Assembly (NCBI RefSeq): GCF_937871615.1
Contig: NZ_CALMPA010000021.1
Location: 1 to 64,000 of the forward strand
DNA length: 64,000 bases
Direction of reading: 5' to 3'
Source of the DNA: an uncultured Sphingomonas sp.
GTDB lineage: Bacteria > Pseudomonadota > Alphaproteobacteria > Sphingomonadales > Sphingomonadaceae
The notes under the pieces are model-generated. The model made no database searches. It worked only from the letters and a program-made list of their open reading frames with translations, and had not been told where the DNA came from. Of this stretch, positions 27,582 through 52,896 are shown piece by piece; positions within the stretch are counted from its first letter, which is position 1, and every line of letters starts with the position of its first letter. A program made the translations under genes and the position numbers.

Positions 27582-27595
27582 CTTAGGTAGTTAAT
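27582..27595. promoter_or_regulatory. Island operator site 1 (CTTAG-GTAG-TTAAT)
   Basis: One full left half and a degenerate right half, 17 bases before the flavin reductase-like start and just after the first MarR gene. A bound regulator would cover the promoter or ribosome entry of the next gene. Confidence 0.6.
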
Positions 27596-27612
27596 TTACC
27601 AAGGGGTGGGCG

Positions 27613-28191
27613 ATGTCGGTTCGGATAGCGGTGATTTCGGGAAGCGTGCGCAACGGATCGCACAACAGCGCGCTTGCGGCGCTCGCCGCCGCGCGCATCG
27701 CGGCGGCGGGCGGCGAGGCCGAGGTAATCGACCTCGCCACCTATAACCTGCCGGTCTATTCGCAGGATCTGGAGCTTCAGGATTGCCCGCCCGATGCGCG
27801 CCGGCTGAAGGCGGTGCTGGCGGGAAGCGACGGCGTACTGATCGCGACGCCGGAGCATAATGGCTCGATCTCCACGTTGCTCAAGAACGCGATCGACTGG
27901 GCTTCGCGACCCGGCGAGGGCGAGACCCTGGTTACGCTCTCCGCCTTTCGCGGCAAGACCGCCGGGATCATGGCGGCGTCGATCGGCCCGTTCGGCGGGA
28001 TGCGCGCGCTTGCCCATCTGCGCCAGATTCTGGGCACCGTGCAGATGATGGTCGTCCCCGAGCAACTCGCGGTGCCGTTCGCGGATCGCGCCTTCACAGC
28101 AGAGCGCGCGCTGGCGGAGCCGCTGCCGAACATGATCCTCGACGGGCTGGTCGCGCGCGTGCTGGAGGTGGCCGAGCGCCTTCGCCCATGA
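27613..28191 (+). CDS. NADPH-dependent FMN reductase-like flavoprotein
   Basis: A 192-residue flavodoxin-like protein with the FMN loop ISGSVRNGSHNSALA at the N-terminus and the family segment ATPEHNGSISTLLKNAIDW near residue 80. Relatives reduce FMN, quinones or metal ions with NAD(P)H. Within the island it is a candidate source of reduced flavin for the acyl-CoA-dehydrogenase-fold monooxygenase at 50,910-52,169, though simple quinone detoxification is equally possible. Operator site 1 stands right upstream. Confidence 0.85.
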   Translation: MSVRIAVISGSVRNGSHNSALAALAAARIAAAGGEAEVIDLATYNLPVYSQDLELQDCPPDARRLKAVLAGSDGVLIATPEHNGSISTLLKNAIDWASRPGEGETLVTLSAFRGKTAGIMAASIGPFGGMRALAHLRQILGTVQMMVVPEQLAVPFADRAFTAERALAEPLPNMILDGLVARVLEVAERLRP

Positions 28192-28228
28192 CGACGACAG
28201 GCTTGCGCTGCTCGCCAGTCGAATATAT

Positions 28229-28242
28229 CTTAGCAATCTAAG
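28229..28242. promoter_or_regulatory. Island operator site 2 (CTTAG-CAAT-CTAAG)
   Basis: The only copy with two perfect CTTAG/CTAAG halves. It ends 17 bases before the GTG start of the CoA transferase gene, overlapping the likely transcription or translation start region. It defines the consensus of the series. Confidence 0.75.
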
Positions 28243-28259
28243 CATTGTTGAGGATCATC

Positions 28260-29438
28260 GTGGGGCCACTTTCGGATATTCGCGTCGTCGAGCTGGGACA
28301 GCTGATCGCCGGGCCGTTCTGCGCCCAGTTGTTCGGCGATCTCGGCGCGAACGTAATCAAGATCGAACCGCCCAAGACGGGCGATCCGATGCGCCAATGG
28401 GGGGCGGGCGATCCGCCGGTGTGGTGGGAGGTGATCGCGCGCAACAAGCGTTCGGTCGCCGCCGATCTGCGCACGCCCGAGGGGCAGGAAATCGCGCGGC
28501 GCCTGATCGCCACCGCCGATGTGCTGATCGAGAATTTCCGCCCCGGCACGCTGGAAAAGTGGAATCTCGCGCCCGCTGATCTGTGCGCGGCCAACCCCCG
28601 GCTGATCGTGGTGCGCGTTTCCGGTTACGGGCAGACCGGCCCCTATTCCACACGCGCCGGCTTCGGCGGGATCGGTGAGGCGATGGGCGGCTGGCGCGCG
28701 TTGGTCGGCACGGCTGACCGCCCACCATCGCGACTCGGCGTTTCGATCGGTGACAGCCTTGCGGGCACCTATGGCTGCCTCGGCGCGCTCGCCGCGCTGC
28801 ACGAACGTGAGAAAAGCGGACGCGGCCAGGTGGTCGACGTCAGCCTGTTCGAATCGGTGTTGCAGGTGATGGAGGGCCTCGTCCCCGAATATGCCGCCGC
28901 CGGCCATGTCCGCGTGCGCTCCGGCTCGATCCTCAAGGGCATCGCGCCGTCCAACGTCTATCCGTGCAGCGATGGCGAGTTGCTGATCGCGGGCAATCAG
29001 GATGCGATCTTCCGCCGGCTGGCGACCGCGATGGGCCAGCCCGAGCTTGGCGAGGATCCGCGCTTCGCCACGCATGTCGCGCGCGGGCAGAACCAGGCGC
29101 TGCTCGACGAGATGATCGCCAACTGGACCCGCGGGCAGACCGTCGCGGCAGTCGAAAAGCTGATGGAGGAATATGCCGTCCCCGCCGGGCGGATGTTCGC
29201 CGCGCGCGACATGCTCGCCGATCCGCATTTCGCGGCGCGTGAGGCGATCGTCTCGGTGGAGACCAAGCATCACGGCACGCTGCCGATGCAGGGCGTGTTC
29301 CCCCGCCTCTCCCGCACGCCCGGCGGCGTGCGCGCCGCCGCCCCGGTCACGGTCGGCGCGGATACCGACGCGCTGCTCGGCGAGGTCGGTTACGACGCCG
29401 CGGCGCTCGCGGACCTCAAGCAGCGCGGCATCGTGTGA
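28260..29438 (+). CDS. CaiB/BaiF-family (class III) CoA transferase
   Basis: A 392-residue class III CoA transferase. The conserved N-terminal block ([30 protein letters not shown]) and the expected Asp nucleophile D165 in [14 protein letters not shown] are present. It moves CoA between a donor such as succinyl-CoA and an organic acid. The start is GTG at 28260 after GAGG. Its stop overlaps the start of the LeuC-like gene by four bases, so the two enzymes are coupled: a CoA ester and an aconitase-type isomerisation are likely sequential steps. Confidence 0.9.
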
Positions 29439-30838
29439 GCGGCACCCTTTTCGATCACGTCTGGGATCGCCACCGCATCCTGGAAGACGGCGGCGAGACG
29501 TTGCTCTACGTCGACCTTCACCTGCTCCACGAGGTCACCTCGCCGCAGGCCTTCGCCGGGCTTGAGGCGCATGGCCGTCCCGTGCGTCAGCCGGCGCGCG
29601 CGCTGGCGCTGTTCGATCACAATGTCCCCACCGTCGGGCAGGAAGACGGCATTGCCGCCGTCGCCGATCCGCAGGCCCGCGCGCAACTCACCCGGCTGGT
29701 GGAAAACAGCACCCGCTACGGGATCGAGCGGTTCGACATGGGCGATCCGCGCAACGGCATCGTGCATGTCGTGGCGCCCGAACAGGGCCGCACCCATCCC
29801 GGCATGACGATCGTGTGCGGCGACAGCCACACCTCCACGCACGGCGCGTTCGGCGCGCTGGCGTTCGGCATCGGCACGACCCAGATCGAACATGTGCTGG
29901 CAACGCAGACGCTGCGGCTACGCAAGCCCAAAACAATGCGCGTCAACGTCACCGGCGCGCTGCCCGCGCACCTTTCGGCCAAGGATCTCGCGCTCGGCAT
30001 CCTGCGTGCGATCGGGGTGGGTGGCGGGCTTGGCCATGCGATCGAATTCACGGGGCCGGCGGTGCGCGCATTGTCGATGGAAGGGCGCATGACGCTGTGC
30101 AATCTCGCGGTGGAGATGGGCGCGCGCGCCGCGCTGATCGCGCCGGACGAAACGACCTTCGCCTATCTGCGCGGGCGCCCCGGCGCGCCGCAGGGCGACG
30201 AATGGGATCGGCAGGTCGCACACTGGCGCACGCTCGCCAGCGCGCCCGACGCCAGCTTCGATCGCGAGGTCGAGGTCGACGCGGCGGGGCTGCGCGCGAT
30301 GGTCACCTGGGGCACCAACCCGTCGCAGGTGGTCGCGGTGGACGAAGCTTTGCCCGATCCGCGCGCCACCACCGATCCGCTCGATCGCGCCGCCCAGGAA
30401 CGCGCGCTCGCCTATATGGGGCTCTCCCCCGGCCAGCCGATCGCCGGATTGCCGATTGATCGGGTGTTCATCGGATCATGCACCAACAGCCGGATCGAAG
30501 ACCTTCGCGCCGCCGCCGACGTCGTGCGCGGTCGCCGTGTCGCGGCGGGCGTCGGGGCGATGATCGTGCCCGGTTCGGGGCTGGTGCGCCAGCAAGCCGA
30601 GGATGAGGGGCTGGCCGATATCTTCATCGCCGCCGGCTTCGAATGGCGCGAACCCGGCTGCTCGATGTGCGTCGGCATGAACCCGGATCGCCTCGCGCCC
30701 GGCCAGCGTTGCGCGGCGACCTCGAACCGCAATTTCGAGAACCGGCAGGGCGCGGGCGGGCGCACCCATCTGATGAGCCCCGCAATGGCCGCCGCCGCCG
30801 CGATCGCGGGCCGCATCATCGACGTGGCGGCGCTTTAG
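29435..30838 (+). CDS. leuC: 3-isopropylmalate dehydratase-type large subunit (aconitase family)
   Basis: A 467-residue LeuC-like protein. The 4Fe-4S cysteines fall at C349, C409 and C412 (FIGSCTNSR and CSMCVGMNP), next to the E. coli LeuC numbers, and [27 protein letters not shown] and SMEGRMT are typical. It would hydrate and dehydrate a hydroxy di- or tricarboxylate. Because it is tied to a CoA transferase and lies in a catabolic island without leuA or leuB, I suspect a degradative paralogue (citramalate or dimethylmalate type) rather than leucine synthesis; that is inference. The matching small subunit lies 0.5 kb away on the opposite strand. The start is GTG at 29435. Confidence 0.85.
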
Positions 30839-31353: not shown

Positions 31354-31920
31354 TCACGGCCTAGTCGACGCGCGATCCTCGAACGCGTCGATCGCTGCGG
31401 CGTGGCGCAGCGTGCGGCCGATATCATCCAGCCCGGCAAGCAGCGCCTCGCGCAGATCGGGATCAATCGCGAACGTCATGCGCAGCGCACCCGCGCTGAT
31501 GGTGCAATCGGGCAGGTTCACCGTGACGGGCGTGCCCGGCGTCTCCGTCAGCAGATCCACCAGCGCGGCATAATCGCCGGGTGCGGGCGCGACGAGCAAC
31601 AGCCCGTTGGTCGCCGCGTTGCCGCTGAAAATCCCGCCGAAGCTCGGCGCGATGACACAGCGGATGCCATGATCGTCAAGCGCCCATACCGCGTGCTCGC
31701 GCGACGAACCGGAGCCGAAATTGCGCCCCGCCACCAATATCCGCGCGGCGGGATCAATCAGGAAACGCGAATCGATCGCACGCATGTCGGCGAACAGATG
31801 CGCGCCGAGCCCGCGCCGATCCAGGCCCTTCATGAACCGTGCGGGAAGGATCTTGTCGGTGTCGATATCCGCATCGCGCAGCAGCGCCGCGCGCGAGGTG
31901 ACGATCGTCCATGGCTTCAT
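31354..31920 (-). CDS. leuD: 3-isopropylmalate dehydratase-type small subunit (aconitase swivel domain)
   Basis: A 188-residue swivel-domain protein: DTDKILPARF near the N-terminus, the substrate loop GSGSSREHAVWALDDHGIRCVIAPSF (about residues 66-91; key residues S, R, E, H), and GIFSGNAATNGLL. The last segment differs from the usual leuD pattern (F-x-N-N-C-x-x-N-G), which may change substrate choice. It should pair with the LeuC-like protein. Its ATG overlaps the stop of the second MarR gene by four bases, so regulator and subunit are coupled and controlled from the 32,417 operator. Confidence 0.87.
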   Translation of the reverse strand: MKPWTIVTSRAALLRDADIDTDKILPARFMKGLDRRGLGAHLFADMRAIDSRFLIDPAARILVAGRNFGSGSSREHAVWALDDHGIRCVIAPSFGGIFSGNAATNGLLLVAPAPGDYAALVDLLTETPGTPVTVNLPDCTISAGALRMTFAIDPDLREALLAGLDDIGRTLRHAAAIDAFEDRASTRP

Positions 31921-32363
31921 ATCGGCTTGCCCCAATCCGCCGCCAGCGTTTCGAGCAACATTTCGAACCGTTTCTGCCCCACCTTCGCGGTGATCTGCGC
32001 GACAAGCTCGCTCATCGCGTCCTGCGCATCGCCGCGCATCTGTTCACCGAACGGGGTGAGCATCAGGCGCTTGTGGCGGGCGTCGTCGGGATCGTCCTCC
32101 AGCGTGACGACATCCTTCTCCACCATCTGCGCGATCGTGCTGTGGATCGCCTGACGCGAAACGCCCATGCGGCGGGCGATTTCCGACGGCCGGGTGACCC
32201 CGCTGACGATATTGACCATCACCATTGATTGCGCCCGGCTGATATCCGGCCACCCCCTGTCATGGACCCGCGCCTGAAGGCCCTCGTCGAGCCAGCAGAA
32301 ACGCTGGAACAGATGAATGATTAATTCGATCGACCGCATGAACTCGCTTAAACGGTGTTGCAT
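31917..32363 (-). CDS. MarR-family transcriptional regulator 2
   Basis: A 148-residue MarR protein with the DNA-binding segment RPSEIARRMGVSRQAIHSTIAQMVEKDVV and the wing DPDDARHKRLMLTPFG. Acidic Asp-Asp before the wing is typical of MarR repressors. The ATG at 32361-32363 is used; a TTG four codons earlier is possible. Its own promoter region holds operator site 3, which it shares with the divergent lyase gene, so it is the best placed candidate for autoregulated control of the series. Confidence 0.88.
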   Translation of the reverse strand: MQHRLSEFMRSIELIIHLFQRFCWLDEGLQARVHDRGWPDISRAQSMVMVNIVSGVTRPSEIARRMGVSRQAIHSTIAQMVEKDVVTLEDDPDDARHKRLMLTPFGEQMRGDAQDAMSELVAQITAKVGQKRFEMLLETLAADWGKPI

Positions 32364-32416
32364 CGCGCGGCGCAAGCCGTGCCGGCGGCTATGGACCAGC
32401 TTGCGGACGCGATTTA

Positions 32417-32430
32417 CTTAGTATACTATC
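32417..32430. promoter_or_regulatory. Island operator site 3 (CTTAG-TATA-CTATC)
   Basis: Placed in the 87-base divergent gap between marR 2 and the lyase gene, 20 bases before the lyase TTG start. Its centre contains TATACT, a good -10 hexamer, so binding would block the promoter. Confidence 0.7.
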
Positions 32431-32450: not shown

Positions 32451-33353
32451 TTGCCTGCTATCGAAATCGTCGAGGTCGCGCCGCGAGACGGATTGCAGAA
32501 TGAGGCCCGCATCGTTTCGACCGCGCACAAGCTGGAACTGATCGACCGCGCCATCGTCGCGGGTGCGCGCCGGCTGGAGGTGACGAGTTTCGTCAACCCG
32601 CGCCGCGTGCCGCAAATGGCGGATGCGGACGAGGTGGTGGCCGGCCTGCCGGATCGCGATGACGTGACGTTCATCGCCCTGGTGCTCAACCGGCGCGGCG
32701 CGGAACGCGCGCTCGCCACGCGGATCGACGAGTTGGGCGCGGTGTGCATCGCCAGCGACACGTTCGGCATCCGCAATCAGGGGCAGACGAGCGCCGAGTC
32801 GCTCGACGTGGCGCGCGAGACGGTCGCGCTGGCGCGGGCGGCGGGGCGCAGCGCGCAGATCACCATCGCCACCGCCTTCGGCTGCCCGTTCGAGGGCGAG
32901 GTTCCGCTCGATCGCGTGGTGGAGATGGCGAAACGCGCGGCAGATGCTTCCCCGCGCGAAGTCGCGCTGGCGGATACGATCGGCGCCGCGGTGCCGGGGC
33001 AGGTAAGCGAGGCGGTCGCGCGCGTGGCGGAGGCGATCGCGCCGCTTCCCGTGCGGGTGCATTTCCACGATACGCGCAACACCGCTGTCGCCAATGTCTG
33101 GGCCGCGATCAACGCCGGCGCATCCGTGATCGACGCGGCACTCGGCGGGCTCGGCGGCTGCCCGTTCGCCCCCGGCGCATCAGGCAATGTCGCAACCGAG
33201 GATGTCCTCTATCTGCTCGATCGTTCGCGCATCGCAACCGGCTATGACCGCGCGCTGGCGATCGACGTGGCGAACTGGCTGACCGGCGTGGTGGGGCGCG
33301 ATCTGTCGGGCAAGGTGCGTTGCGCGCCCGCCTTCCCTGCCGTCACAGCCTGA
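32451..33353 (+). CDS. Hydroxymethylglutaryl-CoA lyase-like enzyme
   Basis: A 300-residue DRE-TIM barrel lyase. Catalytic and metal residues of HMG-CoA lyase are visible: R12-D13 and Q16 in APRDGLQNE, metal ligands H204 and H206 in VHFHDTRN, and the Cys loop GGLGGCPFAPGASGNVATED (C237). It cleaves a 3-hydroxy-3-methyl acyl-CoA, e.g. HMG-CoA to acetyl-CoA and acetoacetate; a citramalyl-CoA-like substrate is possible given the neighbours. The start is TTG at 32451, with AAGGAG six bases upstream. HMG-CoA lyase, CoA transferase and a LeuCD-type hydratase together suggest breakdown of a branched acid. Confidence 0.88.
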   Translation: MPAIEIVEVAPRDGLQNEARIVSTAHKLELIDRAIVAGARRLEVTSFVNPRRVPQMADADEVVAGLPDRDDVTFIALVLNRRGAERALATRIDELGAVCIASDTFGIRNQGQTSAESLDVARETVALARAAGRSAQITIATAFGCPFEGEVPLDRVVEMAKRAADASPREVALADTIGAAVPGQVSEAVARVAEAIAPLPVRVHFHDTRNTAVANVWAAINAGASVIDAALGGLGGCPFAPGASGNVATEDVLYLLDRSRIATGYDRALAIDVANWLTGVVGRDLSGKVRCAPAFPAVTA

Positions 33354-33420: not shown

Positions 33421-33434
33421 CTTCGCTATCTAAG
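33421..33434. promoter_or_regulatory. Island operator site 4 (CTTCG-CTAT-CTAAG)
   Basis: Right half perfect, left half one change. It ends 19 bases before the hydrolase ATG at 33,454 and heads the five-gene kinase/enolase operon. Confidence 0.65.
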
Positions 33435-33453: not shown

Positions 33454-34581
33454 ATGGACCCGCGCGACACCAACGGACTTGACGTGCAATTCATCGGCAA
33501 GGTTTCCCCCACCGCGCCGCGCATTCTTGCGGGCGGCCACCCTTGCCAGGGCATCTATTGGACGCCGGCGGGCAAGAAGCCCAAGACCGCGGTGATCGCG
33601 ACCCATTACAACGTCGATTTCACCGAACATTATATCGCGCCCTATTTCGCGCGGCGCGGGATCGGCTTCCTCGGCTGGAACACGCGCTATCGCGGGTTCG
33701 AGGATCAGTTCCTGCTGCATCACGCGGTGCTGGACATCGGCGTGGGGATGCGCTGGCTCAAGGAAGTGGCGGGCGTCGAGCGGATCGTGATCCTGGGCAA
33801 TTCGGGCGGCGGCTCGCTGATGGGCGCCTATCAGGCAGAAGCGATCAAGCCGACGCTCGGCAGCGAGCTTTCGGGCGCCGGGCTGGATGCGCTCAACGAT
33901 CTCATCAAGGCCGATCTCTACATCTCGCTCAACGCGCACCAGGGCCGCCCCGAAGTGCTGACCGACTGGCTTGACGCATCGGTGGTGGACGAAAATGATC
34001 CGGTGGCGACCGATCCGTCGCTCGATCCGTTCAGCGCCGAGAACGCCCCGCCCTATTCGGAGGAGTTCGTCACCCGTTACCGCGCGGCGCAGCGCACGCG
34101 CAACCAGCGCATCACCGATTGGGCGAAGGTCGAACTGAAGCGGCTCAACGATGCCGGCGTGCCTGACCGGCTGTTCCCGCTGTTTCGCGTGTGGGGCGAT
34201 CTGCGCTGCATGGATCCGTCGCTCGATCCGTCAACGCGCAAGCCGCGGCTGTGCTATCGCGGCGATCCCGTCACCGCGAACCGCACGCCCTCGATCGGGC
34301 GCTTCAACACGATCAAGACCTGGCTCAACATGTGGAGCCTGGAAACCTCGCCGTGCCAGGGCGCACCGCATCTCGCCAAGTTCGACACCCCCGCGCTGGT
34401 GGTGCAGGGCACGGCGGACACCGGCGTGTTCCCGAGCGACGCGCGCAAGATCTTCGACAATATCGGCTCGACCGACAAGCAGATCGAACTGATCCCCGGC
34501 GCGCATTATTTCGAGGATTCGAATGCGGAACGCGACGTGGCCGCCGACCTGATGGTCGCGTGGATCGAAGCCAAGAGCTGA
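33454..34581 (+). CDS. Alpha/beta-fold hydrolase
   Basis: A 375-residue alpha/beta hydrolase with a likely complete triad: S117 in ILGNSGGGS, D322 in GTADTGVF and H351 in PGAHYFED. A lid of about 150 residues lies between the Ser and Asp. It may hydrolyse an ester, thioester or C-C bond of a pathway intermediate. The ATG at 33,454 follows GAGAGGAG; a longer frame start at 33,379 crosses the operator. It is the first gene of an operon with the kinase (14-base gap), enolase paralogue, dehydrogenase and a second hydrolase. Confidence 0.82.
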   Translation: MDPRDTNGLDVQFIGKVSPTAPRILAGGHPCQGIYWTPAGKKPKTAVIATHYNVDFTEHYIAPYFARRGIGFLGWNTRYRGFEDQFLLHHAVLDIGVGMRWLKEVAGVERIVILGNSGGGSLMGAYQAEAIKPTLGSELSGAGLDALNDLIKADLYISLNAHQGRPEVLTDWLDASVVDENDPVATDPSLDPFSAENAPPYSEEFVTRYRAAQRTRNQRITDWAKVELKRLNDAGVPDRLFPLFRVWGDLRCMDPSLDPSTRKPRLCYRGDPVTANRTPSIGRFNTIKTWLNMWSLETSPCQGAPHLAKFDTPALVVQGTADTGVFPSDARKIFDNIGSTDKQIELIPGAHYFEDSNAERDVAADLMVAWIEAKS

Positions 34582-34595
34582 GCGAGGCATTGAGC

Positions 34596-35597
34596 GTGAC
34601 CGACACGGGCGAGGCAGCCACCATCACATCCCTGCGCCGCGCGGGGCTTGCCCGCGACGGCCAGCCGGTCACGCTCACCCCGCTTTCGGGCGGGGTATCG
34701 TGCGACGTGTGGCTGGCGCGGATCGGTGACGAGCCGCCGATCGTCGTCAAGCGCGCGCTGCCGCAATTGCGCGTTGCGGCGGAGTGGCTCGCCCCTGTCG
34801 AGCGGGCCGAGAATGAGGTGCGCTGGCTGCAATGCGCGCGGCGGATCGACGCGCGGCTGGCGCCGGAAGTGGTGGCGGCGGTGCCGGACGAGCATTTGTT
34901 CGCGCTCGCCTATCTGGAGCCGGAAGCGCATCCGGTGTGGCGCGACGAACTGATCGCGGGCCGCGTCGATCCCGGCTTCGCGAGCGGCTTCGGCCACGAT
35001 CTCGCCCGCATCCATGCCGCGACCGCCGACGACGCGGCGATGGCGCGCGATTTCGACAGCATGGACCTGTTCGACGCGCTGCGCATCTCGCCGTTTCTGC
35101 GCTATGTCGCGGGGAACCGGCCCGAGGTGGCGGCGCGGCTGAACGCGATCGCGGACGATCTTCAGGCGCGGCGCGGCGCACTGGTTCATGGCGATGTCAG
35201 CCCCAAGAATATCCTGTGCGGGCCGGAAGGCGGCGTGTTTCTCGATGCCGAATGCGCGGTCTATGGCGATCCCGCGTTCGATCTCGCCTTTTGCACCACG
35301 CATCTGCTGCTCAAGACGATCTGGCTCGCCGATCATGCCGCGCCGCTGAAACAATCGGCAAGCGCGTTCGTCGCGCGCTATCTCGCTGGCGTAACGTGGG
35401 AACCTGCCGAGGCGCTCGCCGCACGGGCCGGAGCCCTGCTCTCCGCGCTGCTGCTCGCGCGGGTCGAGGGCAAATCCCCCGCCCCCTATCTCGATGCGAC
35501 GGCCCGAGAGGTGGTGCGCGCCCGCGCGCTGGCGCTGCTCGCCGCCGACACCCCGACGATCGACCAACTTATCGCCGACTGGCCCATGGAGTTCTGA
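34596..35597 (+). CDS. APH-type phosphotransferase (small-molecule kinase)
   Basis: A 333-residue protein of the aminoglycoside phosphotransferase/choline kinase fold. The catalytic loop HGDVSPKNIL carries D200 and N205, and the metal-binding D217 is in FLDAECAVYGDPAFDLAF; the nucleotide Lys is in PPIVVKRAL. No antibiotic resistance is implied: in such catabolic operons these kinases phosphorylate a hydroxyl of a metabolite. The GTG at 34,596 follows GAGG by eight bases; a TTG two codons earlier is less well spaced. It is followed by the enolase paralogue with a one-base overlap, which suggests it makes the phospho-compound that enzyme uses. Confidence 0.82.
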   Translation: MTDTGEAATITSLRRAGLARDGQPVTLTPLSGGVSCDVWLARIGDEPPIVVKRALPQLRVAAEWLAPVERAENEVRWLQCARRIDARLAPEVVAAVPDEHLFALAYLEPEAHPVWRDELIAGRVDPGFASGFGHDLARIHAATADDAAMARDFDSMDLFDALRISPFLRYVAGNRPEVAARLNAIADDLQARRGALVHGDVSPKNILCGPEGGVFLDAECAVYGDPAFDLAFCTTHLLLKTIWLADHAAPLKQSASAFVARYLAGVTWEPAEALAARAGALLSALLLARVEGKSPAPYLDATAREVVRARALALLAADTPTIDQLIADWPMEF

Positions 35598-42239: not shown

Positions 42240-42290
42240 CATCATCCGGGAGTCGACGCCGCTCGATCGCAACAACGGATAAGGATGGGA

Positions 42291-44018: not shown

Positions 44019-44031
44019 GGAGAGAGAGACG

Positions 44032-44701: not shown

Positions 44702-44714
44702 TTCGGCTTATGCT
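44686..44714 (+). promoter_or_regulatory. Strong sigma-70-type promoter for the VOC gene
   Basis: TTGACA (44686-44691), 17-base spacer, TATGCT (44709-44714). Transcription would start near 44,721 and give a leader of about 115 bases before the VOC start. The -35 box is inside the palindrome. Confidence 0.6.
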
Positions 44715-44728
44715 CGCGAACATAATAC

Positions 44729-44773
44729 GGGAAGGTGGCGAGTCGCCTGGGCGCACCGGCGCTTCACCTTCCC
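44729..44773 (+). other. Structured 5' leader (possible three-way junction) before the VOC gene
   Basis: Perfect nine-base arms GGGAAGGTG (44729-44737) and CACCTTCCC (44765-44773) enclose two small hairpins, GCG-AGT-CGC (44738-44746) and GCGC-ACCG-GCGC (44751-44762). The fold begins a few bases after the predicted transcription start, 62 bases before the coding start. I do not recognise an Rfam family. Confidence 0.4.
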
Positions 44774-44834
44774 GACAGTTTCCCCGGACCGCACCCACGC
44801 GCAATCCGGTTGATGGCACAAGAGGAGACGGATG

Positions 44835-45510: not shown

Positions 45511-45524
45511 CTTATATTGCTAAG
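45511..45524. promoter_or_regulatory. Island operator site 7 (CTTAT-ATTG-CTAAG)
   Basis: It ends 33 bases before the MetE-like start and lies within a plausible promoter, TTGCAG (45502-45507), 17 bases, TATCCT (45525-45530). Confidence 0.65.
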
Positions 45525-45557: not shown

Positions 45558-46607
45558 ATGGCCAACGATATCCTTCTGCCGACGACCATCGTGGGCAGCT
45601 ATCCACAGCCCGATTGGCTGATCGACCGTGAGCGGCTGAAGGCGAGCCTTCCGCCGCGCACCCGCGCCCAGGAATTGTGGCGTATCCCCGAGCCCTGGCT
45701 GGGCGACGCGCAGGAAGCCGCGACGCTCGTTGCCATTCGCGATCAGGAACTGGCCGGCATCGACATCGTCGGCGATGGCGAAATGCGCCGCGAAAGCTAT
45801 TCCAACCGCCTCGCCAACGCGCTGAGCGGGATCGATATCGACAATCCCGGCGTGGCGATGGATCGCACCGGCAAGCCCAACCCGGCACCGCGCGTCAGCG
45901 GCCCGATCCGCCGCATCGGCGGGATCGAGGTGCAGGACGCCCAATACCTCAAGCGCCATTCGACGAAGCCGGTGAAGCTCACCCTCCCCGGCCCGTTCAC
46001 GATGACCAAGCAGGCGCAGAACGATTATTACAAGACCGACGCCGATCTCGCGATGGATTATGCCGATGCGGTGAATGCGGAGATCAAGGATCTGTTCGCC
46101 GCCGGCGTCGATGTCGTCCAGCTTGACGAGCCGTATCTTCAGGCCCGCGCGACCGACGCGCGCGATTTCGCGCTTGCCGCGATTGATCGCTCGCTCGAAG
46201 GCGTTACCGGCACGACTGCGCTGCACATCTGTTTCGGCTATGCGCTGGTCCACGGCAATCAGGTGACCAAGCCCAAGGCCTATGACTTCCTGACCGAACT
46301 CAACCGCTCGCGAATCGACGTGATCTCGGTCGAGGCGGCGCAGCCGGGGCTCGATCCGTCGATCCTCGCCGAACTGCCCGACAAGATCATCATGTATGGC
46401 GTGCTCGATCTGTCGCATAACGAGATCGAGCCGGCGGAACTGATCGCGGCGCGCATCCGCGAGGCGCTGCGCCATGTGTCGTCCGACCGGCTGTGGATCG
46501 CGCCCGATTGTGGCATGAAATATCACTCGCGCGAGGTCGCCTTCGCGAAGCTCGCCGCGATGGTCGAAGGCACGCGCATCGTCCGCAAGGAGCTTGGCGC
46601 GGCATGA
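45558..46607 (+). CDS. Short MetE-like zinc methyltransferase (cobalamin-independent)
   Basis: A 349-residue protein equal to the C-terminal catalytic barrel of MetE without the N-terminal folate domain. Zinc ligands are expected at H223 and C225 (LHICFGY), E259 (SVEAAQ) and C318 (APDCGMK). Relatives move a methyl or alkyl group to a thiol, including core methionine synthases and epoxyalkane:coenzyme M transferase. In this island it may take a methyl or alkyl group from the substrate onto homocysteine or another thiol; a simple methionine synthase is the alternative. AAGGGG precedes the ATG at 45,558. Confidence 0.82.
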   Translation: MANDILLPTTIVGSYPQPDWLIDRERLKASLPPRTRAQELWRIPEPWLGDAQEAATLVAIRDQELAGIDIVGDGEMRRESYSNRLANALSGIDIDNPGVAMDRTGKPNPAPRVSGPIRRIGGIEVQDAQYLKRHSTKPVKLTLPGPFTMTKQAQNDYYKTDADLAMDYADAVNAEIKDLFAAGVDVVQLDEPYLQARATDARDFALAAIDRSLEGVTGTTALHICFGYALVHGNQVTKPKAYDFLTELNRSRIDVISVEAAQPGLDPSILAELPDKIIMYGVLDLSHNEIEPAELIAARIREALRHVSSDRLWIAPDCGMKYHSREVAFAKLAAMVEGTRIVRKELGAA

Positions 46608-46612
46608 ATATC

Positions 46613-46694: not shown

Positions 46695-48422
46695 ATGAGT
46701 AGTAACGATTTCAGCCGCCGCACCTTGCTTGCGAGTGCTGGCGGCGTGGCGGCGGTGGCAGCGGCGGTTTCGATGGCGAAACCGGCCGAAGCGGCCCCGG
46801 CGACGATCGAGCGCCCGCGTGGCAAGCGCCGCACGGATGGCCGCTACAACATCCTGATGATCGTTACCGACCAGCAGCGTTCCTTCGCCGACGTGCCGAA
46901 ATCGCTGCCGATGCCGGGGCAGGACATGATCCGCCGCCGGGGCGTCTCGTTCGACAATTACCTCATCAACACCAATCCGTGCGGGCCATCGCGCGCGGTG
47001 ATGTATACCGGGCAGCATACCCAGCAGAACGGCGTGTATCTCAATCCGAACAGCCAGCCCTTCCCGGAATTGCGCAAGGACATACCGACGATCGGCCATA
47101 TGCTGCGCGACGCGGGCTATTACACCACGTACAAGGGCAAGTGGCATCTGTCCGACATCGAGCTGCCGCAGGTTTCCGAGCGCAAGCTGAAATATCCGCG
47201 CGGCGACGATCTCCTCGAACCGTTCGGCTTCTCGGACTATAATTTCGACGGCGAGCGCGTCGGCCTGACCTGGCAGGGCTTCATGGACGACGGGACGACC
47301 GCCGCCGAAGCGATCAACACGCTGCGCGATCTGGAGGGCGGCAAGGCCGGCGACAAGCCGTGGTTCATGGCGGTGAATTTCGTCAATCCGCACGATATCA
47401 TGTTCTTCGACGCGCGCGGTGACGGCGAAAAGACCCGCATAATGCCCAATCTGATCGCGCCGCTGTTTCCAGCGCCCGGCGATCCGATCTACGACGCGGA
47501 CTGGAAAGCGCCGCTTCCCAAGAGCTTCTATGCCGACGATCTGTCGACCAAGCCCAGCGCGCACGCCGCGATCCGCGCCGCTTCATGGGCGTTCTACGGC
47601 AAGCTCGATCATGCCGACGAGGCGGCGTGGCAGCGTTTCCAGAATTACTATTTCAACTGCATTCGCGATGTCGATCGCCACGTCGCGGCGGTGATGACCG
47701 CGCTGGAGGAAAGCGGGCAGATCGACGACACGATCGTCATCTACACCTCCGATCACGGCGAGCGCGGCGGCGCGCACGGGCTGCGCCAGAAGGCCGGCAC
47801 GGTCTATAAGGAGGATATCGGCGTTCCGTTCGTCATCGCGCATCCAAAAGGCGCGAAGGGGCAACAGACCGCGGCGCTCGGCACCACGCTCGATATCGCG
47901 CCAACGCTGCTCAGCATGGCCGGCGTCGATGCAGCGAAGCGCCCTGCCACGCTCAAGGGGCACGATCTCACCCCCGCCGCGATGCACCCGGATGCGCGCA
48001 CCGGCCGCGATCAGCAGGGCTCGCTGCTCAATTATGCGGTGGCCTATGGCTGGAACCAGCCGGACGTGCCGCCCGGCGTGGAGAATGTGAAGCCGCTCGC
48101 CGCGCCCGATGTCGCGCTGCGGCGGCTGTATCGCGGGGTATTCGACGGGCGCTACAAGTTCGCGCGCTATTTCGCGCCGGACCAGCACCATATCCCGACG
48201 AGCTGGGAAATGCTGACCAGGCTCAACGATCTGGAATTGTACGACACGCTGCGCGATCCGGACGAGATCGTGAACCTCGCCAGCCCGGCGAACCGCGAGA
48301 AGAACCGCGCGCTGATCCTGCGGCTCAGCAAGATGACCAACGCGCTGATCGCGCGCGAAGTGGGCGTGGACGACGGCGCGCTCTACAAGGGCCAGTACAA
48401 GGTCACCAACAAGACGGCGTGA
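46695..48422 (+). CDS. Tat-exported type I sulfatase
   Basis: A 575-residue sulfatase with a twin-arginine signal (SRRTLLASAGG, cleavage near AEAAPA). The formylglycine site is C96 in NPCGPSRAVMYTG (C-x-P-S-R), and metal/substrate residues appear in IVTDQQ, YKGKWHL and YTSDHGE. It should cleave a sulfate ester in the periplasm; arylsulfatase or other alkyl sulfate classes cannot be told apart. A formylglycine-generating enzyme is needed and is not in the window. GAGGAGAGG precedes the ATG. It ends at a strong bidirectional terminator facing receptor 2. Confidence 0.9.
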   Translation: MSSNDFSRRTLLASAGGVAAVAAAVSMAKPAEAAPATIERPRGKRRTDGRYNILMIVTDQQRSFADVPKSLPMPGQDMIRRRGVSFDNYLINTNPCGPSRAVMYTGQHTQQNGVYLNPNSQPFPELRKDIPTIGHMLRDAGYYTTYKGKWHLSDIELPQVSERKLKYPRGDDLLEPFGFSDYNFDGERVGLTWQGFMDDGTTAAEAINTLRDLEGGKAGDKPWFMAVNFVNPHDIMFFDARGDGEKTRIMPNLIAPLFPAPGDPIYDADWKAPLPKSFYADDLSTKPSAHAAIRAASWAFYGKLDHADEAAWQRFQNYYFNCIRDVDRHVAAVMTALEESGQIDDTIVIYTSDHGERGGAHGLRQKAGTVYKEDIGVPFVIAHPKGAKGQQTAALGTTLDIAPTLLSMAGVDAAKRPATLKGHDLTPAAMHPDARTGRDQQGSLLNYAVAYGWNQPDVPPGVENVKPLAAPDVALRRLYRGVFDGRYKFARYFAPDQHHIPTSWEMLTRLNDLELYDTLRDPDEIVNLASPANREKNRALILRLSKMTNALIAREVGVDDGALYKGQYKVTNKTA

Positions 48423-48537: not shown

Positions 48538-50781
48538 TCAGAAGTTCTTCGACACCTGGAGCGTGATCGTCCGCGCCGGATTCACGAACACCGAGGTGGC
48601 GCCAGTGACGAACGGAATGCCGAATCCCTGGCTCCAGCTTACCGTGTTGCTGAGATTGCGCCCGATCAGCGCGATATCCCAGCCCTGCGCCTTGTTGGTG
48701 ACGGCGATACGCGCGTCATAGGTGGTATAGGCCGGCATCATCGTCGATGGCGCCTGCGTATCCTGATAGTTGGTCAGCCCGGTATAATTCGCCGAACCGC
48801 GCGCCGTGAGGCTCAGATCGTCGCTGATCGGCGCGTCGATCTGCGCATAGGCGGTCCATTTCCATTTGGGCGCGCGCGTCAGGCGATAGCCCGCAAGGTT
48901 CTGCGACACGCACGTCGGCGGCGCCCCGTAAACGCAGGTGGCACCCGGATAATCGAGATACTTCGCATCGAGATACGCCACGTTGCCGCCAAGCGTCAGG
49001 ATCGAAACCGGGCGGACATTGCCTTCGAATTCGATGCCACGCGAGCGGACCCTCGCAGCGTTTCCGGTAACGAAGCTGACGCCATTGTAGGTGGAAACCT
49101 GGAGATTGTCGAAATCGGTGCTGAACACCGCGAGGTTGGCATCATAAACGCCGCCCGCCCCGCGCATTTTCAGCCCAGCTTCCCACGACTTCGCGCGCTC
49201 GGGATCGAACTGATATTTGCCGGTCAGCCCAAGCCGCGTGTCATTCGAAACGAAGCCGCCGCCCTTGCTGCCGGTGGCGTAGCTTACATAAACTTGGCCG
49301 CGGCTGCTGAATTTGTAGCTGACCTTGCCTGAATAATCCCACAGCTTTTCCACGCGCTTGCCACGGATATCATAGGGCACGAACGCCAGCGGCCCCGGCA
49401 ATTGCTGCATCCGCGCCTGCTTGTTTTCATGGCTGTAGCGCAGGCTGCCGTCGATGGTGAGGCCGGGGAGCACTTCAAGGTTCGCCGCGATGAACGGCGA
49501 CACGGATTCGCTCGTCTGATCGAACGGCAGCACCGAATTGCCGTTCACTACCGGCGGCACCGGCAGCCCGGCGGTGCGCCAGAAGATATTCTGCACGATA
49601 TGCGATTTGGCGTAATAATATTGCACGCCACCGAACAGCGAAAGCGCGCCGATCGAGCCGGAAAGCCGGGCTTCCTGCGAAATCTGCGTGGTGCTTTCGG
49701 TGTGGAGATTATCCGAGAAGTTGAGCGGGCTGTTGTCGATATCGGTTTCGGTGCTCGCCTTGAGGTGGTTGTAGCCGCCGATCGTGGTGAGCTGGACCCC
49801 GCCACCGAGATCGGTGTTGGTAGTCAGCGTCACGGCGACATTCTCGGTGCGCGAGAATTCGGGATAGGGCGAGGACTGGACGCGGACGAAGCCGGGCGTT
49901 TCGGGAACGCCGCCAAATGCCGCATCAGTAGTGCGGACGAGATTGGCGAAGGCAGACGTGCCCAGCCCGTTATAGGCCCGGTTGCCGCCCTTGTAATCGT
50001 TCTTGCCGTATTCGACCTTCAGCTTGGCCGACATGCCCTTCATCGGCTCGAACAGCAATTGCCCGCGAATGCCGAGATAGTCGTTCGAATTGTCGCGCTT
50101 GCCGGTCGCGCGGTTATACATATAGCCGCCGGCATGGCCGCCCTGCGCGCTCAAACGGGCCGAGAGGGTGTCGGTCAGCGGGCCGGACAGATAGCCTTCC
50201 CCGTTCCACCCCTTGTTCTCGAATTCGTAGCCACCGCTGACGCGGCCCTCGAAATCGCGCGTCGGCGCGGCGGTGATGACGCTGATCGCGCCGGCATCGG
50301 TGTTCTTGCCGAACAACGCGCCCTGCGGCCCGCGCACCACCTCGACCCGCGCGACATCCATCATCGCGGTTTGCAGCGAGCGCGCGCGCCCCGAATAGAT
50401 GCCATCGACGAAGAAGCCGACCGATTGCTCAAACGCCAGATTGCCGCCGCCCGAGCCGAGCCCGCGCATACTGATGACGAAATTGCCGTTGGTCTGGTCG
50501 ATCTGGAGGTTGGGGACGCTGCCCTGGAGGTCGTTGAACTGGCGCGTGCCCATCTTGTCGAGATCGGCACCGGAAACCACCGCGACGGACAGCGGCACAT
50601 CGAGCAGGGTCTGCGGACGCCGCGTCGCGGTAACGATAACGTCATTGCCGGTGGCGGCGGTAGCGCGCTGATCGGCGCTATCGGTGGCAGGCGCCGCCTC
50701 CTGCGCATAAGCCGGCATCGCCAGAAACGGCACGGCCGCCCCCATCAGCAACGCAATACGCCTGTTCCTGAAACCCTTCAT
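48538..50781 (-). CDS. TonB-dependent outer-membrane receptor 2
   Basis: A 747-residue receptor: signal peptide ending MPAYAQ, TonB box region DVIVTATRRPQTLLDVPLS, plug with MRGLGSGGGN and VEVVRGPQGALFGKNTDAGAISVIT, and a barrel ending TLQVSKNF. It differs clearly from receptor 1 in the barrel, so the two may take different substrates or forms (for example sulfated and free). AGGAGGAGG precedes the ATG. Operator site 8 lies about 97 bases upstream. Confidence 0.95.
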   Translation of the reverse strand: MKGFRNRRIALLMGAAVPFLAMPAYAQEAAPATDSADQRATAATGNDVIVTATRRPQTLLDVPLSVAVVSGADLDKMGTRQFNDLQGSVPNLQIDQTNGNFVISMRGLGSGGGNLAFEQSVGFFVDGIYSGRARSLQTAMMDVARVEVVRGPQGALFGKNTDAGAISVITAAPTRDFEGRVSGGYEFENKGWNGEGYLSGPLTDTLSARLSAQGGHAGGYMYNRATGKRDNSNDYLGIRGQLLFEPMKGMSAKLKVEYGKNDYKGGNRAYNGLGTSAFANLVRTTDAAFGGVPETPGFVRVQSSPYPEFSRTENVAVTLTTNTDLGGGVQLTTIGGYNHLKASTETDIDNSPLNFSDNLHTESTTQISQEARLSGSIGALSLFGGVQYYYAKSHIVQNIFWRTAGLPVPPVVNGNSVLPFDQTSESVSPFIAANLEVLPGLTIDGSLRYSHENKQARMQQLPGPLAFVPYDIRGKRVEKLWDYSGKVSYKFSSRGQVYVSYATGSKGGGFVSNDTRLGLTGKYQFDPERAKSWEAGLKMRGAGGVYDANLAVFSTDFDNLQVSTYNGVSFVTGNAARVRSRGIEFEGNVRPVSILTLGGNVAYLDAKYLDYPGATCVYGAPPTCVSQNLAGYRLTRAPKWKWTAYAQIDAPISDDLSLTARGSANYTGLTNYQDTQAPSTMMPAYTTYDARIAVTNKAQGWDIALIGRNLSNTVSWSQGFGIPFVTGATSVFVNPARTITLQVSKNF

Positions 50782-50877: not shown

Positions 50878-50891
50878 CTTAGTATTCTAAT
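50878..50891. promoter_or_regulatory. Island operator site 8 (CTTAG-TATT-CTAAT)
   Basis: Upstream of receptor 2 (start 50,781) and just after the monooxygenase stop. On the minus strand it is followed by an AT-rich TTAATAAT that could be the -10 region of the receptor gene. Confidence 0.7.
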
Positions 50892-50909: not shown

Positions 50910-52169
50910 TCAATACGTCTGGGCGTTGGGCGCCAGGCCGATCAGCGAGCGCCCGTGAAGCTCCGCGGCGCCGTCCTTGTCGTAAACGATATGGTTCGAC
51001 ATCACGTTCACGTCGCGCAGGTAGCGTTGCATCGGGTTGCTCCGCAGATGGGAGCTGGCGCCGCTCGCCTCCGCCACCATCATGATCGCGTGGCGGCACA
51101 GCTCCATCGCCTGCGCGATCTGCAACCGCATCCGCGAACGCTGTTCGAAATCGGCGCGCTTTTCCGGCGTGGCGAGCGCGATATTGCTGTTCAGCGCATC
51201 TCGCAGCAGCAATTCCGCCGTCCGCGCCATCACGCTGGCATTGGCGAGGCGCATCTGCGCCGCCGGCTTTTCGGACTGGGTGATATTGGTGCCCATCACC
51301 ATGCGCTCGGCGAGTTGCTCGCGGAACAGCGACACCGCCGCCCGCGCCGCGCCGACGCCGGAGATCGCCGCGGTCACGCCGAGCAACGGCAGCATCGGCT
51401 GGCGATAGATCGGGTTATCGTACAGCCGCGAGCCATGGGCGGTGCCGGCGCGCATCTCCGCCATGTCCATCGTGCGATGCTCGGGGATGAAAACATCCTC
51501 GATCAGGAGATCGTGGCTGCCCGTCCCCTCCATGCCGTCGATATGCCAGGTGTCGAGCACGGTGACCTGCTCGGTCGGCAACGCGCAGAACAGCACCACA
51601 TTGGCCGGGCCGTCGACGATCATGTTGGCGACCAGCACCCAATCCGAATGCATGACGCCGGTGCCCCATTTCCAGCGCCCGGTGATGCGATAACCGCCAT
51701 CGACCTTCACTGCCTTTCCCGGCGGGGCGGTGGCGCCCGGCGCGATCACATAAGGAACGCGATCGCCATCGAGCGTGCCGAACACCTCGTCCTGAAACTG
51801 TTCCGGAAACTGGGTGAGCATCCAATTGTGTTCGACGCAGAAAGCGGTGACCCAGCCGGTTGACGGGCAGCCTTCGCTCAGCGGCAACATCGCATCAATG
51901 AAGCTGTCCGCATCGAATTCCAGCCCGCCATATTTCTTGGGGATGAAATGATAGAAGCAGCCGGTCTTGCGGATTTCGTTCCACACCGATTCGATCGGAT
52001 GGCGCGCGCGCTCGCACTCCGCGGCATGGGCGGCGAGCAGCGGCTTCAGCGCGGTGGTGCGGCGGATCAGCTCCTGCGGCGTCAGGCTCGCGAGATCGCC
52101 ACGGGTCAGAAAATCATCGTTGGCGGGGATGAAGGGCTGAACCCTGGGGGCGGACGCGGCACTGCTCAT
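50910..52169 (-). CDS. Acyl-CoA-dehydrogenase-fold flavin monooxygenase (group D, HsaA/HpaC2-like)
   Basis: A 419-residue protein with the acyl-CoA dehydrogenase fold but monooxygenase-type features: KKYGGLEFDADSFIDAMLPLSEGCPSTGWV, GGYRITGRWKWGTGVMHSDWVL and a C-terminal SSHLRSNPMQRYLRDVNVMSNH, as in HsaA and 4-hydroxyphenylacetate monooxygenase oxygenases. The acyl-CoA dehydrogenase catalytic Glu segment is absent. It would use reduced flavin from a separate reductase, possibly the one at 27,613-28,191, to hydroxylate an aromatic or activated substrate. AGGAG is six bases before the second of two adjacent ATGs, chosen here. Site 9 is upstream. Confidence 0.85.
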   Translation of the reverse strand: MSSAASAPRVQPFIPANDDFLTRGDLASLTPQELIRRTTALKPLLAAHAAECERARHPIESVWNEIRKTGCFYHFIPKKYGGLEFDADSFIDAMLPLSEGCPSTGWVTAFCVEHNWMLTQFPEQFQDEVFGTLDGDRVPYVIAPGATAPPGKAVKVDGGYRITGRWKWGTGVMHSDWVLVANMIVDGPANVVLFCALPTEQVTVLDTWHIDGMEGTGSHDLLIEDVFIPEHRTMDMAEMRAGTAHGSRLYDNPIYRQPMLPLLGVTAAISGVGAARAAVSLFREQLAERMVMGTNITQSEKPAAQMRLANASVMARTAELLLRDALNSNIALATPEKRADFEQRSRMRLQIAQAMELCRHAIMMVAEASGASSHLRSNPMQRYLRDVNVMSNHIVYDKDGAAELHGRSLIGLAPNAQTY

Positions 52170-52251
52170 CATGCTCTCCTGACACTATCTTTCGTCATAC
52201 CCCTTCGCACGGGGCCTGAGTCGATATTGTCAGGTTGCCTGCCTAATTACA

Positions 52252-52265
52252 ATTAGAAATCTAAC
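52252..52265. promoter_or_regulatory. Island operator site 9 (ATTAG-AAAT-CTAAC)
   Basis: Between the DUF3237 protein 2 stop and the monooxygenase start, about 80 bases upstream of the latter. Both halves differ from the consensus at one outer base only. Confidence 0.65.
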
Positions 52266-52283
52266 TGATCCGCCGCATCGACC

Positions 52284-52772
52284 CTACAGCATCTCGTAAA
52301 CGTCATATTCCACCGCGCCGCCGACCGACGCGCCGATCGCCACCGTGACGATATCGTTGAGCCACTGATAATCGGGATGCCCGGTTTCGAAGACCGGCGC
52401 GGTGCGGAAATAGACCTGCGCATGATCCTCCGCCGTCTTCGGCCCGCCGCGCCGGATGAGTTCGCGCACCTTGTCCAGCGGGCGCAGCACGCCGCGATAT
52501 GAGGCGTAGATCAGCGCGCCATCATGCGTTTCCAGCGTGACCCGCGCGTCGAGCCGCAGCACGCCGCGATCATCGAACGTCGCCCAATCGCCGCCGCCCG
52601 GCAGTACCCTGCCGGAAAGGCGATCGCCCTTCACGATCCCGCCCGTCAGCGCCGCGATCATCCGCGTGCCGAAATGGCCGCGGCCGACCATCTGCTGAGG
52701 CTCGGAAAACTCCGCGCGATAGGAGCAGAGATACGCGAAACGCGGCTCCAGCATCGGGATGTTACGGGTCAC
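52284..52772 (-). CDS. DUF3237 (UPF0311) protein 2
   Basis: A 162-residue DUF3237 protein with GGIVKGDRLSGRVLPGGGDW, LDARVTLETHDGALIYASYRG and YFRTAPVFETGHPDYQWLND. It is a diverged paralogue of protein 1 at 38,517-39,011 with the same family blocks. The GTG start at 52,772 follows AGGAG by eight bases. It lies upstream of the monooxygenase on the same strand, suggesting it binds or processes a compound made or used by that enzyme. Confidence 0.87.
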   Translation of the reverse strand: MTRNIPMLEPRFAYLCSYRAEFSEPQQMVGRGHFGTRMIAALTGGIVKGDRLSGRVLPGGGDWATFDDRGVLRLDARVTLETHDGALIYASYRGVLRPLDKVRELIRRGGPKTAEDHAQVYFRTAPVFETGHPDYQWLNDIVTVAIGASVGGAVEYDVYEML

Positions 52773-52882
52773 GCGCGTCTCTCCTGCCTGTTCGGTTCGG
52801 CGGAGGCTCGATCTCCTCGACCATGCGGCATCGCGCCACCTGGCTGGATACGATCGTAAAAACCATTGGCCGACCGAGTTTG

Positions 52883-52896
52883 CTTCGAATACTAAC
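52883..52896. promoter_or_regulatory. Island operator site 10 (CTTCG-AATA-CTAAC)
   Basis: In the 233-base divergent gap between DUF3237 protein 2 (start 52,772) and marR 3 (start 53,006). The left half repeats the CTTCG variant of site 4. The rest of this gap holds no gene I can support. Confidence 0.6.

Follow-up and report, generated by a model that had tools for sequence, protein, structure and literature searches.

A conserved palindrome, predicted operator of a MarR-family regulator, in a sphingomonad catabolic gene cluster

We have analysed 64 kb of DNA (G+C 66%) from an uncultured Sphingomonas sp., contig NZ_CALMPA010000021.1, hereafter the window, which belongs to a genome of 3.99 Mb in 71 contigs. 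In this window, copies of the palindrome CTTAG-N4-CTAAG stand before the heads of operons, they are conserved in related loci, and across genomes they are associated with the gene of one MarR-family protein, MarR1. The repeated palindrome is real and conserved, and its eleven copies are predicted operators that probably serve a single regulator of the MarR family, for which MarR1 (26983-27558) is the best candidate. Two other MarR proteins, MarR2 and MarR3, are encoded in the same span.

The repeated palindrome and its conservation

An earlier note on this DNA had described ten intergenic sites of the form CTTAG-N4-CTAAG as the mark of a 25-kb regulon, with a lone weak match elsewhere in the window. 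All ten sites are where it had placed them (Table 1). The common form is loose when mismatches are counted as departures from its 10 fixed bases: a single site is perfect (28229), four have one mismatch (33421, 42226, 45511 and 50878) and five have two (27582, 32417, 39047, 52252 and 52883). The ten sites are indeed intergenic, provided that the HMG-CoA-lyase-like gene starts at the TTG at 32451, which is preceded by GGAGC; the longer start of the gene caller would place site 32417 inside the gene. Start codons were chosen by a Shine-Dalgarno-like sequence upstream, and the operators end 17-110 bp ahead of them.

The sites are nevertheless recognisable by an independent weight matrix. For this matrix we used 44 named loci (L074-L117; L, G and C numbers are our handles for loci, genomes and contigs), which were picked for encoding a relative of MarR2; the closest MarR2 relatives among the named records come from Sphingomonas, Sphingopyxis, Polymorphobacter, Novosphingobium and unplaced sphingomonad or proteobacterial metagenome-assembled genomes. 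Sites with at most two mismatches outside tblastn-marked genes were collected; removal of those with more than one mismatch in the core, and of identical 24-mers, left 178 sites, from which a symmetric 24-bp matrix was made. The window itself was excluded, as a held-out case. In the window the matrix gives eleven hits of at least 8 bits, the ten described sites and position 22865, whereas 100 shuffles within 40-base blocks gave a mean of 0.44 and a maximum of 2. Ten of the eleven remain at 12 bits, the next-best hit (4.5 bits) overlaps site 50878, and a matrix made without the four loci nearest to the window (L074-L077) puts the same eleven sites on top. In the profile, the TTAG-N4-CTAA core is bordered on each side by A/T-rich flanks that also carry information.

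When two mismatches are allowed, 13 matches occur in the window, against a mean of 3.63 (standard deviation 1.67, largest 8) in 100 dinucleotide shuffles. Beyond the described ten there are three, of which 22865 is a matrix hit, and 6547 and 42474, both within called genes, are not. A spacer of 4 yields these 13 matches and every other length from 0 to 10 yields 0-5; in the 44 related loci the figures are 256 and 16-117. A control with permuted arms was unsupportive in the window (60 permutations, at most two mismatches), CTTAG with its 13 matches being below the mean of 15.4 and far from the top of 75, because GC-rich coding sequence favours the permuted arms. In the 44 loci, at one mismatch at most, CTTAG is the first of the 60 arms (113 matches; next 64; mean 12.4). 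The case for an operator rests on position and conservation, not on the raw count.

As for conservation, 244 of the 259 sites with at most two mismatches in the 44 loci and L048 lie outside the genes marked by tblastn, where any gene left unmarked is taken as outside. A relative's gene was considered to have an upstream site when one of at least 15 bits was present within 200 bp (420 for marR2, allowing for a truncated match). In testable related loci, such a site precedes marR2 (44/44), the MetE-like gene (32/32), the FMN reductase gene (40/41), the AMP ligase gene (38/39), marR1 (38/43), leuD (36/41) and leuC (20/33); the less often testable genes gave 4/4 for the CaiB-type CoA transferase, 3/3 for the lyase, 2/2 for DUF3237-1, 1/1 for the MFS carrier, 1/2 for the short-chain dehydrogenase and 2/8 for TonB receptor 1. 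The first hydrolase gene has one in 5/42 loci. Genes internal to operons have none (kinase 0/41, enolase 0/41, hydroxyacid dehydrogenase 0/40, second hydrolase 0/40), nor do those for the sulfatase (0/6), acyl-CoA dehydrogenase (0/11), VOC (0/5), carboxymuconolactone-decarboxylase-like (0/4) and SnoaL-like (0/2) proteins. These counts are not independent, since divergent pairs share sites, many loci are close kin and the matrix comes from the same loci. Indeed, the relatives' AMP ligase, about 73-77% identical to that of the window among the loci listed, is as a rule encoded divergently to marR2 with one site common to both, and marR1 and leuD are divergent neighbours able to share a site.

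Position 22865, the lone match that the earlier note had called weak, is thus predicted to be an eleventh operator, because it scores 23.1 bits and the ligase gene that it precedes has an upstream site in nearly all related loci. The regulon would then start at least at 22865 and cover about 30 kb rather than 25.

In the whole genome, 14 sites have at most one mismatch, of which six lie in the window against 0.22 expected by length; the other eight lie outside it. The shorter TTMGN4CTAA occurs at 20 places, six of them in the window. As a search motif, WWNTTAGNNNNCTAANWW was discarded as over-strict: it has no match in this genome and matches in 7 of 18 genomes. The proposal of one regulon defined by a common operator therefore stands in that the sites are conserved at the same promoters in relatives, but the motif is also found at other sites of the genome.

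The MarR protein that probably reads the operator

The earlier note had listed three MarR proteins in the span and singled out none. Each is above a Pfam MarR cut-off; they are, however, not equal candidates, and genome comparison favours MarR1. MarR2 and MarR3 are paralogues (34% identical), and MarR1 belongs to a different subgroup, with 22% identity to MarR2 over 82 residues. In the window the start sides of marR2 and marR3 face a site, and marR1 has one 24 bp past its stop codon.

We surveyed 397 genomes of the family, 16 of which encode an orthologue of the first hydrolase (at least 71% identity). In these 16, an orthologue of MarR1 (at least 58%) is present in 15, of MarR2 (at least 55%) in 13 and of both in 12. 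Each of the 15 genomes with MarR1 carries 4-9 sites of at least 15 bits in the stretch of 20-64 kb that was read around the cluster. The remaining genome, G320, has no MarR1 match at 1e-20 and no site of at least 15 bits in 39.9 kb. Its genes nevertheless encode a MarR2 (55%), a second copy (41%), the hydrolases, ligase, VOC, carboxymuconolactone-decarboxylase-like, SnoaL-like and TonB proteins. Two genomes with MarR1 and the cluster keep their sites without a MarR2 orthologue: G302, with eight, is outside the 159 genomes that have a MarR2 match at 0.001, and G074, with six, has a best match of 30%. In G319, a 42% MarR2-like protein accompanies MarR1 and seven sites.

We also compared regions. 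Where MarR1 and the cluster occur together (26 regions), 98 sites reach 15 bits against 0.7 expected, whereas 17 regions with cluster-type or MarR2/3-like genes and no regional MarR1 orthologue hold one such site, against 1.0 expected from shuffles. One of the 17, L240, has two distant MarR1-like genes (39 and 34%). This tally omits L048, L050-L053, L188-L194, L249, L252 and L254-L256, which are patches of the window's own genome, neighbourhoods of distant MarR1-like genes or regions of genomes with MarR1 elsewhere. The earlier note had made its regulon depend on the motif not being equally frequent near other genes, and this comparison, which covers a part of that question, agrees with it.

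The palindromes could in principle serve another factor or a structural role, as a promoter element or an AT-rich signal. In the relatives, the centre of many sites is TATACT or TATTCT and resembles a -10 box. Since sites near similar genes without MarR1 are no more frequent than in shuffles, the motif does not behave as a general promoter element; moreover, the matrix finds nothing else at 8 bits or above in the window, and a spacer of 4 is set apart from the other lengths. We consider this explanation very improbable.

MarR2 and/or MarR3 might instead be the main reader, with MarR1 controlling something else. A site precedes marR2 in every one of the 44 loci, though these were chosen for holding MarR2, and marR3 faces site 52883. 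In the window's own genome, a MarR3-like gene (48%) lies in a patch with a site on either side (C55:5452 and 7536), but these score only 13.4 and 13.9 bits. A strong site of 24.7 bits in G089 is within 20 kb of a MarR3-like gene, in a genome with no MarR1 match at 1e-20. Against this explanation, G302 and G074 have sites without a MarR2 orthologue, G320 has two MarR2-type genes and no site, and the 18-20 kb regions around MarR2/3-type genes in G253, G189, G056, G185, G296, G219 and G099 contain no site of at least 12 bits. We therefore regard a main role of MarR2 or MarR3 as unlikely.

Alternatively, two or three of the MarR proteins could compete for the same operator, in a multi-input switch or a cascade. 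The positions of all three marR genes link them to the operator, MarR1 and MarR2 occur together in most cluster genomes (12/16), and G319 combines MarR1 with a distant MarR2. However, the two proteins are barely alike and no separate conservation signal calls for a second reader, so that we find such a competition quite unlikely.

Several observations weigh against MarR1 as the reader. The contrast between 15/15 cluster genomes with MarR1 and 0/1 without it depends on the only clear cluster-orthologue genome that lacks MarR1, and is thin alone (Fisher p 1/16). In the other regions without MarR1 the clusters are mostly paralogues rather than orthologues, and one such region, L049, belongs to the window's own genome, which has MarR1 elsewhere. 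Six genomes (G252, G365, G384, G380, G324 and G284) coincide with loci from which the matrix was made, so the count of 98 sites is not entirely independent of the matrix; the six do not include the window, G302, G074 or G319. The G089 site mentioned above (L251:17877, CTTAGTTGACTATC) lies in a region with a MarR3-like gene and no MarR1. No site precedes marR1 itself in the window or in the four closest relatives, L074-L077; as regards autoregulation, most testable related loci (38/43) have a site upstream of marR1, and the window has none. Finally, five genomes (G021, G085, G242, G277 and G351) have an orphan MarR1 (61-76%), and none of the five regions (12-20 kb read) has a site of at least 15 bits, with 0.3 expected. 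The presumed recognition helix is REPTTVVALK in four of these five proteins, as in the window; that of G351 is REPTTVIAIR, as in G074, which has sites. The five genomes have no match of the first hydrolase at 1e-60, and the cluster is absent from the regions read, although three of the orphan genes adjoin a kinase gene like that of the cluster. The orphan genes are perhaps remnants, or else MarR1 might act on other targets. Elsewhere in G351, contig C13 has two one-mismatch sites, one of 17.4 bits and the other below 12. In spite of these points, we retain MarR1 as the probable reader.

Some further observations concern MarR-like genes and motifs. In G085, where the MarR1 orthologue is an orphan, the neighbours of a site of 24.0 bits (L254:9940, C11) are LeuC/LeuD-like genes and a gene for a MarR1-like protein (29%). 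In G363 and G149, GTTAGATAACTAAG sites adjoin distant MarR1-like genes (about 40%). The genome of the window encodes a MarR1 paralogue (52%; L188:4421-4894, C45:62324), and the 20 kb around it has no site of at least 12 bits and one of 11.9. MarR3-like genes were rejected as the sole carrier of the motif, as those of G101:C1 (41%) and G201:C1 (31%) have no site of at least 12 bits in 20 kb; both genomes have MarR1. In two regions with MarR3-like genes, the near-identical GTTAATWTACTTAA was observed at L049:14981 (own C46) and L195:15701 (G253). It could belong to the MarR2/3 subfamily as a motif of its own, from two cases that are both weak matrix hits (11.0 and 9.0).

Gene content and predicted working of the regulon

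The features are collected in Table 1. Two labels of the earlier note need adjustment: its kinase/enolase operon opens with an alpha/beta hydrolase gene, and its monooxygenase is a protein of the acyl-CoA-dehydrogenase fold whose best NCBIfam match, HsaA, remains below the cut-off of that model.

Table 1. Predicted operators and genes in the order of the window (mismatches to CTTAG-N4-CTAAG; bits of the weight matrix)
Feature	Position	Strand	Details
Operator 11, CATAGGAAGCTAAG	22865..22878	.	1 mismatch; 23.1 bits; 42 bp before the AMP-ligase start
AMP-binding acyl-CoA/acid ligase	22921..24555	+	PF00501 3.9e-76
MarR1	26983..27558	+	PF01047 1.7e-11; gene caller start 27043
Operator CTTAGGTAGTTAAT, gap between marR1 stop and FMN reductase	27582..27595	.	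2 mismatches; 14.6 bits
NADPH-dependent FMN reductase	27613..28191	+	PF03358 2.5e-42
Operator CTTAGCAATCTAAG, sole perfect copy	28229..28242	.	0 mismatches; 28.1 bits
CaiB-type CoA transferase	28260..29438	+	PF02515 2.8e-124 (open reading frame from 28245); start by upstream GAGGA
LeuC-like dehydratase large subunit	29435..30838	+	TIGR00170 687.7 bits, over cut-off
LeuD-like dehydratase small subunit	31354..31920	-	TIGR00171 133.0 bits, over cut-off
MarR2 (longest start)	31917..32375	-	PF12802 2.9e-10
Operator CTTAGTATACTATC, marR2/lyase gap	32417..32430	.	2 mismatches; 37.8 bits, top matrix score of the window
HMG-CoA-lyase-like enzyme	32451..33353 (TTG start)	+	PF00682 8.4e-39; NF004283 295.9 bits, over cut-off (open reading frame from 32391)
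Operator CTTCGCTATCTAAG	33421..33434	.	1 mismatch; 23.7 bits
Five-gene operon	33454..38504	+	alpha/beta hydrolase, APH-type kinase, second enolase, D-2-hydroxyacid dehydrogenase, alpha/beta hydrolase (Pfam/NCBIfam)
DUF3237 protein 1	38517..39020	-	PF11578 4.4e-33
Operator GTTCGTAATCTAAG, gap between DUF3237-1 and TonB receptor 1	39047..39060	.	2 mismatches; 24.4 bits
TonB-dependent receptor 1	39112..41343	+	named from sequence by the earlier note
Short-chain dehydrogenase	41386..42162	-	PF00106 3.3e-41
Operator CTTACGTATCTAAG	42226..42239	.	1 mismatch; 17.9 bits
MFS transporter	42285..43601	+	PF07690 1.5e-48 (open reading frame from 42354); start by upstream GGATAAGG
SnoaL-like, carboxymuconolactone-decarboxylase-like and VOC (glyoxalase) proteins	43626..45452	+	PF12680, PF02627, PF00903
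Operator CTTATATTGCTAAG	45511..45524	.	1 mismatch; 11.9 bits, weakest of the eleven
MetE-like protein (cobalamin-independent methionine synthase catalytic-domain family)	45558..46607	+	PF01717 9e-38; under cut-off in each of the 12 NCBIfam models listed
Sulfatase	46695..48422	+	PF00884 4.9e-41
TonB-dependent receptor 2	48538..50781	-	named from sequence by the earlier note
Operator CTTAGTATTCTAAT, before receptor 2	50878..50891	.	1 mismatch; 33.6 bits
Acyl-CoA-dehydrogenase-fold flavin monooxygenase, HsaA-like	50910..52172	-	PF08028 2.7e-25; NF045629 244.9 bits, below cut-off 450
Operator ATTAGAAATCTAAC, before monooxygenase	52252..52265	.	2 mismatches; 20.6 bits
DUF3237 protein 2	52284..52772	-	PF11578 3.4e-41
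Operator CTTCGAATACTAAC, DUF3237-2/MarR3 gap	52883..52896	.	2 mismatches; 22.5 bits
MarR3	53006..53530	+	PF12802 27.9 bits, cut-off 27
Acyl-CoA dehydrogenase	53527..54702	+	PF00441 1.7e-36; overlaps marR3 stop; probably in the marR3 operon

We propose that a MarR1 dimer would bind the AT-flanked palindrome before the operon heads, from 22.9 to 53 kb, and would block transcription, acting as a repressor rather than an activator. The distance of the sites from the start codons fits a repressor that blocks RNA polymerase, without proving it. MarR1 would be released by a small inducer, which might be an aromatic or acyl substrate or the CoA ester of one, and the operons for the ligase, CoA transferase, LeuCD-like dehydratase, HMG-CoA-lyase-like enzyme and kinase/enolase set would then switch jointly, together with the two TonB receptors, the MFS carrier and the flavin monooxygenase and reductase. 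A CoA ester is a reasonable inducer because the ligase and the CoA transferase would be co-regulated, as in the CouR system discussed below. From the flavin reductase and the HsaA-like monooxygenase, the substrate may be aromatic or polycyclic; LeuCD, the CoA transferase and the lyase might act on citramalate-like intermediates. Placed behind the same operator, marR2 and marR3 would be targets or second-tier regulators.

Tentatively, and with somewhat less than even confidence, a broader role can be imagined: a SlyA-like MarR1 as the master switch of an undescribed sphingomonad pathway that recruits extra enzymes of central type (second enolase, LeuCD-like, HMG-CoA-lyase-like and MetE-like), with MarR2 and MarR3 as a second tier and trans sites at transporter and receptor loci. 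If this were true, the motif could be used to locate the full gene set and the substrate. The second enolase (35597-36895) is full-length in the catabolic operon (TIGR01060, 478 bits, cut-off 300), and the only other enolase copy found in this genome is at C20:63835 (686 bits).

We read the gene context of sites outside the window at C55, C22, C8 and C45; those of C39, C42 and C47 come from the site scan only. Some of the outside sites adjoin genes of kinds also present in the cluster. The two C55 sites flank a MarR3-like/monooxygenase pair next to a TonB receptor. At C22:40763 (L050:9764), CTTAGCTTTCTAAT, of 14.9 bits, precedes an MFS carrier gene, and a TonB receptor about 3.7 kb away is 45% identical to receptor 2. 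A kinase-like gene and an acyl-CoA dehydrogenase gene stand on the two sides of C8:24980 (26.7 bits), and C45:47914 precedes a SnoaL-like open reading frame, the types at both being read from translations.

Three side observations concern paralogous or neighbouring genes. The C55 patch (L048:3155-7549) encodes a TonB receptor 55% identical to receptor 1, the MarR3-like protein (48%) and an HsaA-like monooxygenase (56%). In G324, the block of receptor 2, monooxygenase, DUF3237-2 and MarR3 (L194, G324:C1:163000-182900) has sites of 28.9 and 34.3 bits and lies on another contig than the main cluster; the two parts are joined in the window and separate in that genome. A DUF1501 and DUF1800 gene pair (54817-57509, minus strand) stands just outside the regulon, without an operator.

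The operator offers an objective criterion for the gene membership of an uncharacterised pathway, including parts elsewhere in the genome. This pathway occurs in many Sphingopyxis records, in some Sphingomonas and in other sphingomonads. Since the comparison singles out one regulator, the regulator-operator pair and the question of the substrate are directly testable.

Comparison with known MarR systems

Searches of the literature on the regulator, the genes and the sphingomonad genera, with partial coverage that leaves room for a printed description, found no paper on this regulon by title. The regulon appears to be new, while its kind, with a SlyA-like MarR operator, is already known and its regulatory principle is ordinary.

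The core TTAG-N4-CTAA is the same as in the consensus given for the enterobacterial SlyA/RovA-type MarR regulators, TTAGCAAGCTAA, in the parts of the source consulted (PMC5797941), and site 28229 contains TTAGCAATCTAA, 11 of the 12 bases of that consensus. The system described here differs by its compact catabolic regulon and by AT-rich flanks that are part of the motif. By phmmer, MarR1 matches the SlyA chain 3q5f at 1.6e-7 and also the SlyA chain 3deu, but other MarR proteins score better, the best match in the Protein Data Bank being 2fbh (PA3341). MarR2 matches SlyA chains more weakly (6.3e-4), and MarR3 has no SlyA chain among its structure matches at 0.01.

A MarR-type control of sphingomonad catabolic genes is known from DesR of Sphingobium sp. 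SYK-6. According to the sections of the report that we consulted, similar inverted repeats precede several genes and desR itself, DesR controls desB, ligM and desR, effectors inhibit its binding, and repression occurs by blocking RNA polymerase (PMC6888825). The likeness lies in the type of regulator, the sphingomonad catabolic genes and the inverted repeats before several genes, which are predicted here at eleven sites. The DesR repeats as given there, GTTTGTGT(C/A)ACATAC, are unlike our motif; by eye, the matrix differs from these published repeats and does not agree with the DesR-type operator GTTTGTGTNACATAC.

The loci for catabolism of auxin (indole-3-acetic acid) also have MarR repressors, MarR_73/IadR and IacR, and release by the substrate was demonstrated for MarR_73, as far as the consulted parts of these papers go (PMC9613470, PMC11630574). 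This resembles the repressor proposed here, which would be released by a substrate of the pathway, and the Sphingopyxis strain Root154 named there shares its name with our locus L103. As regards a likeness to iac/iad loci, a Pfam scan of 30 window proteins gave no Rieske domain.

The proposed inducer finds its model in CouR of Rhodococcus jostii, a MarR protein that is described as repressing a pathway for an aromatic acid and as losing its DNA binding in the presence of the CoA ester (PMC4737184). By analogy, a CoA ester formed in the pathway could release MarR1 from its predicted operators.

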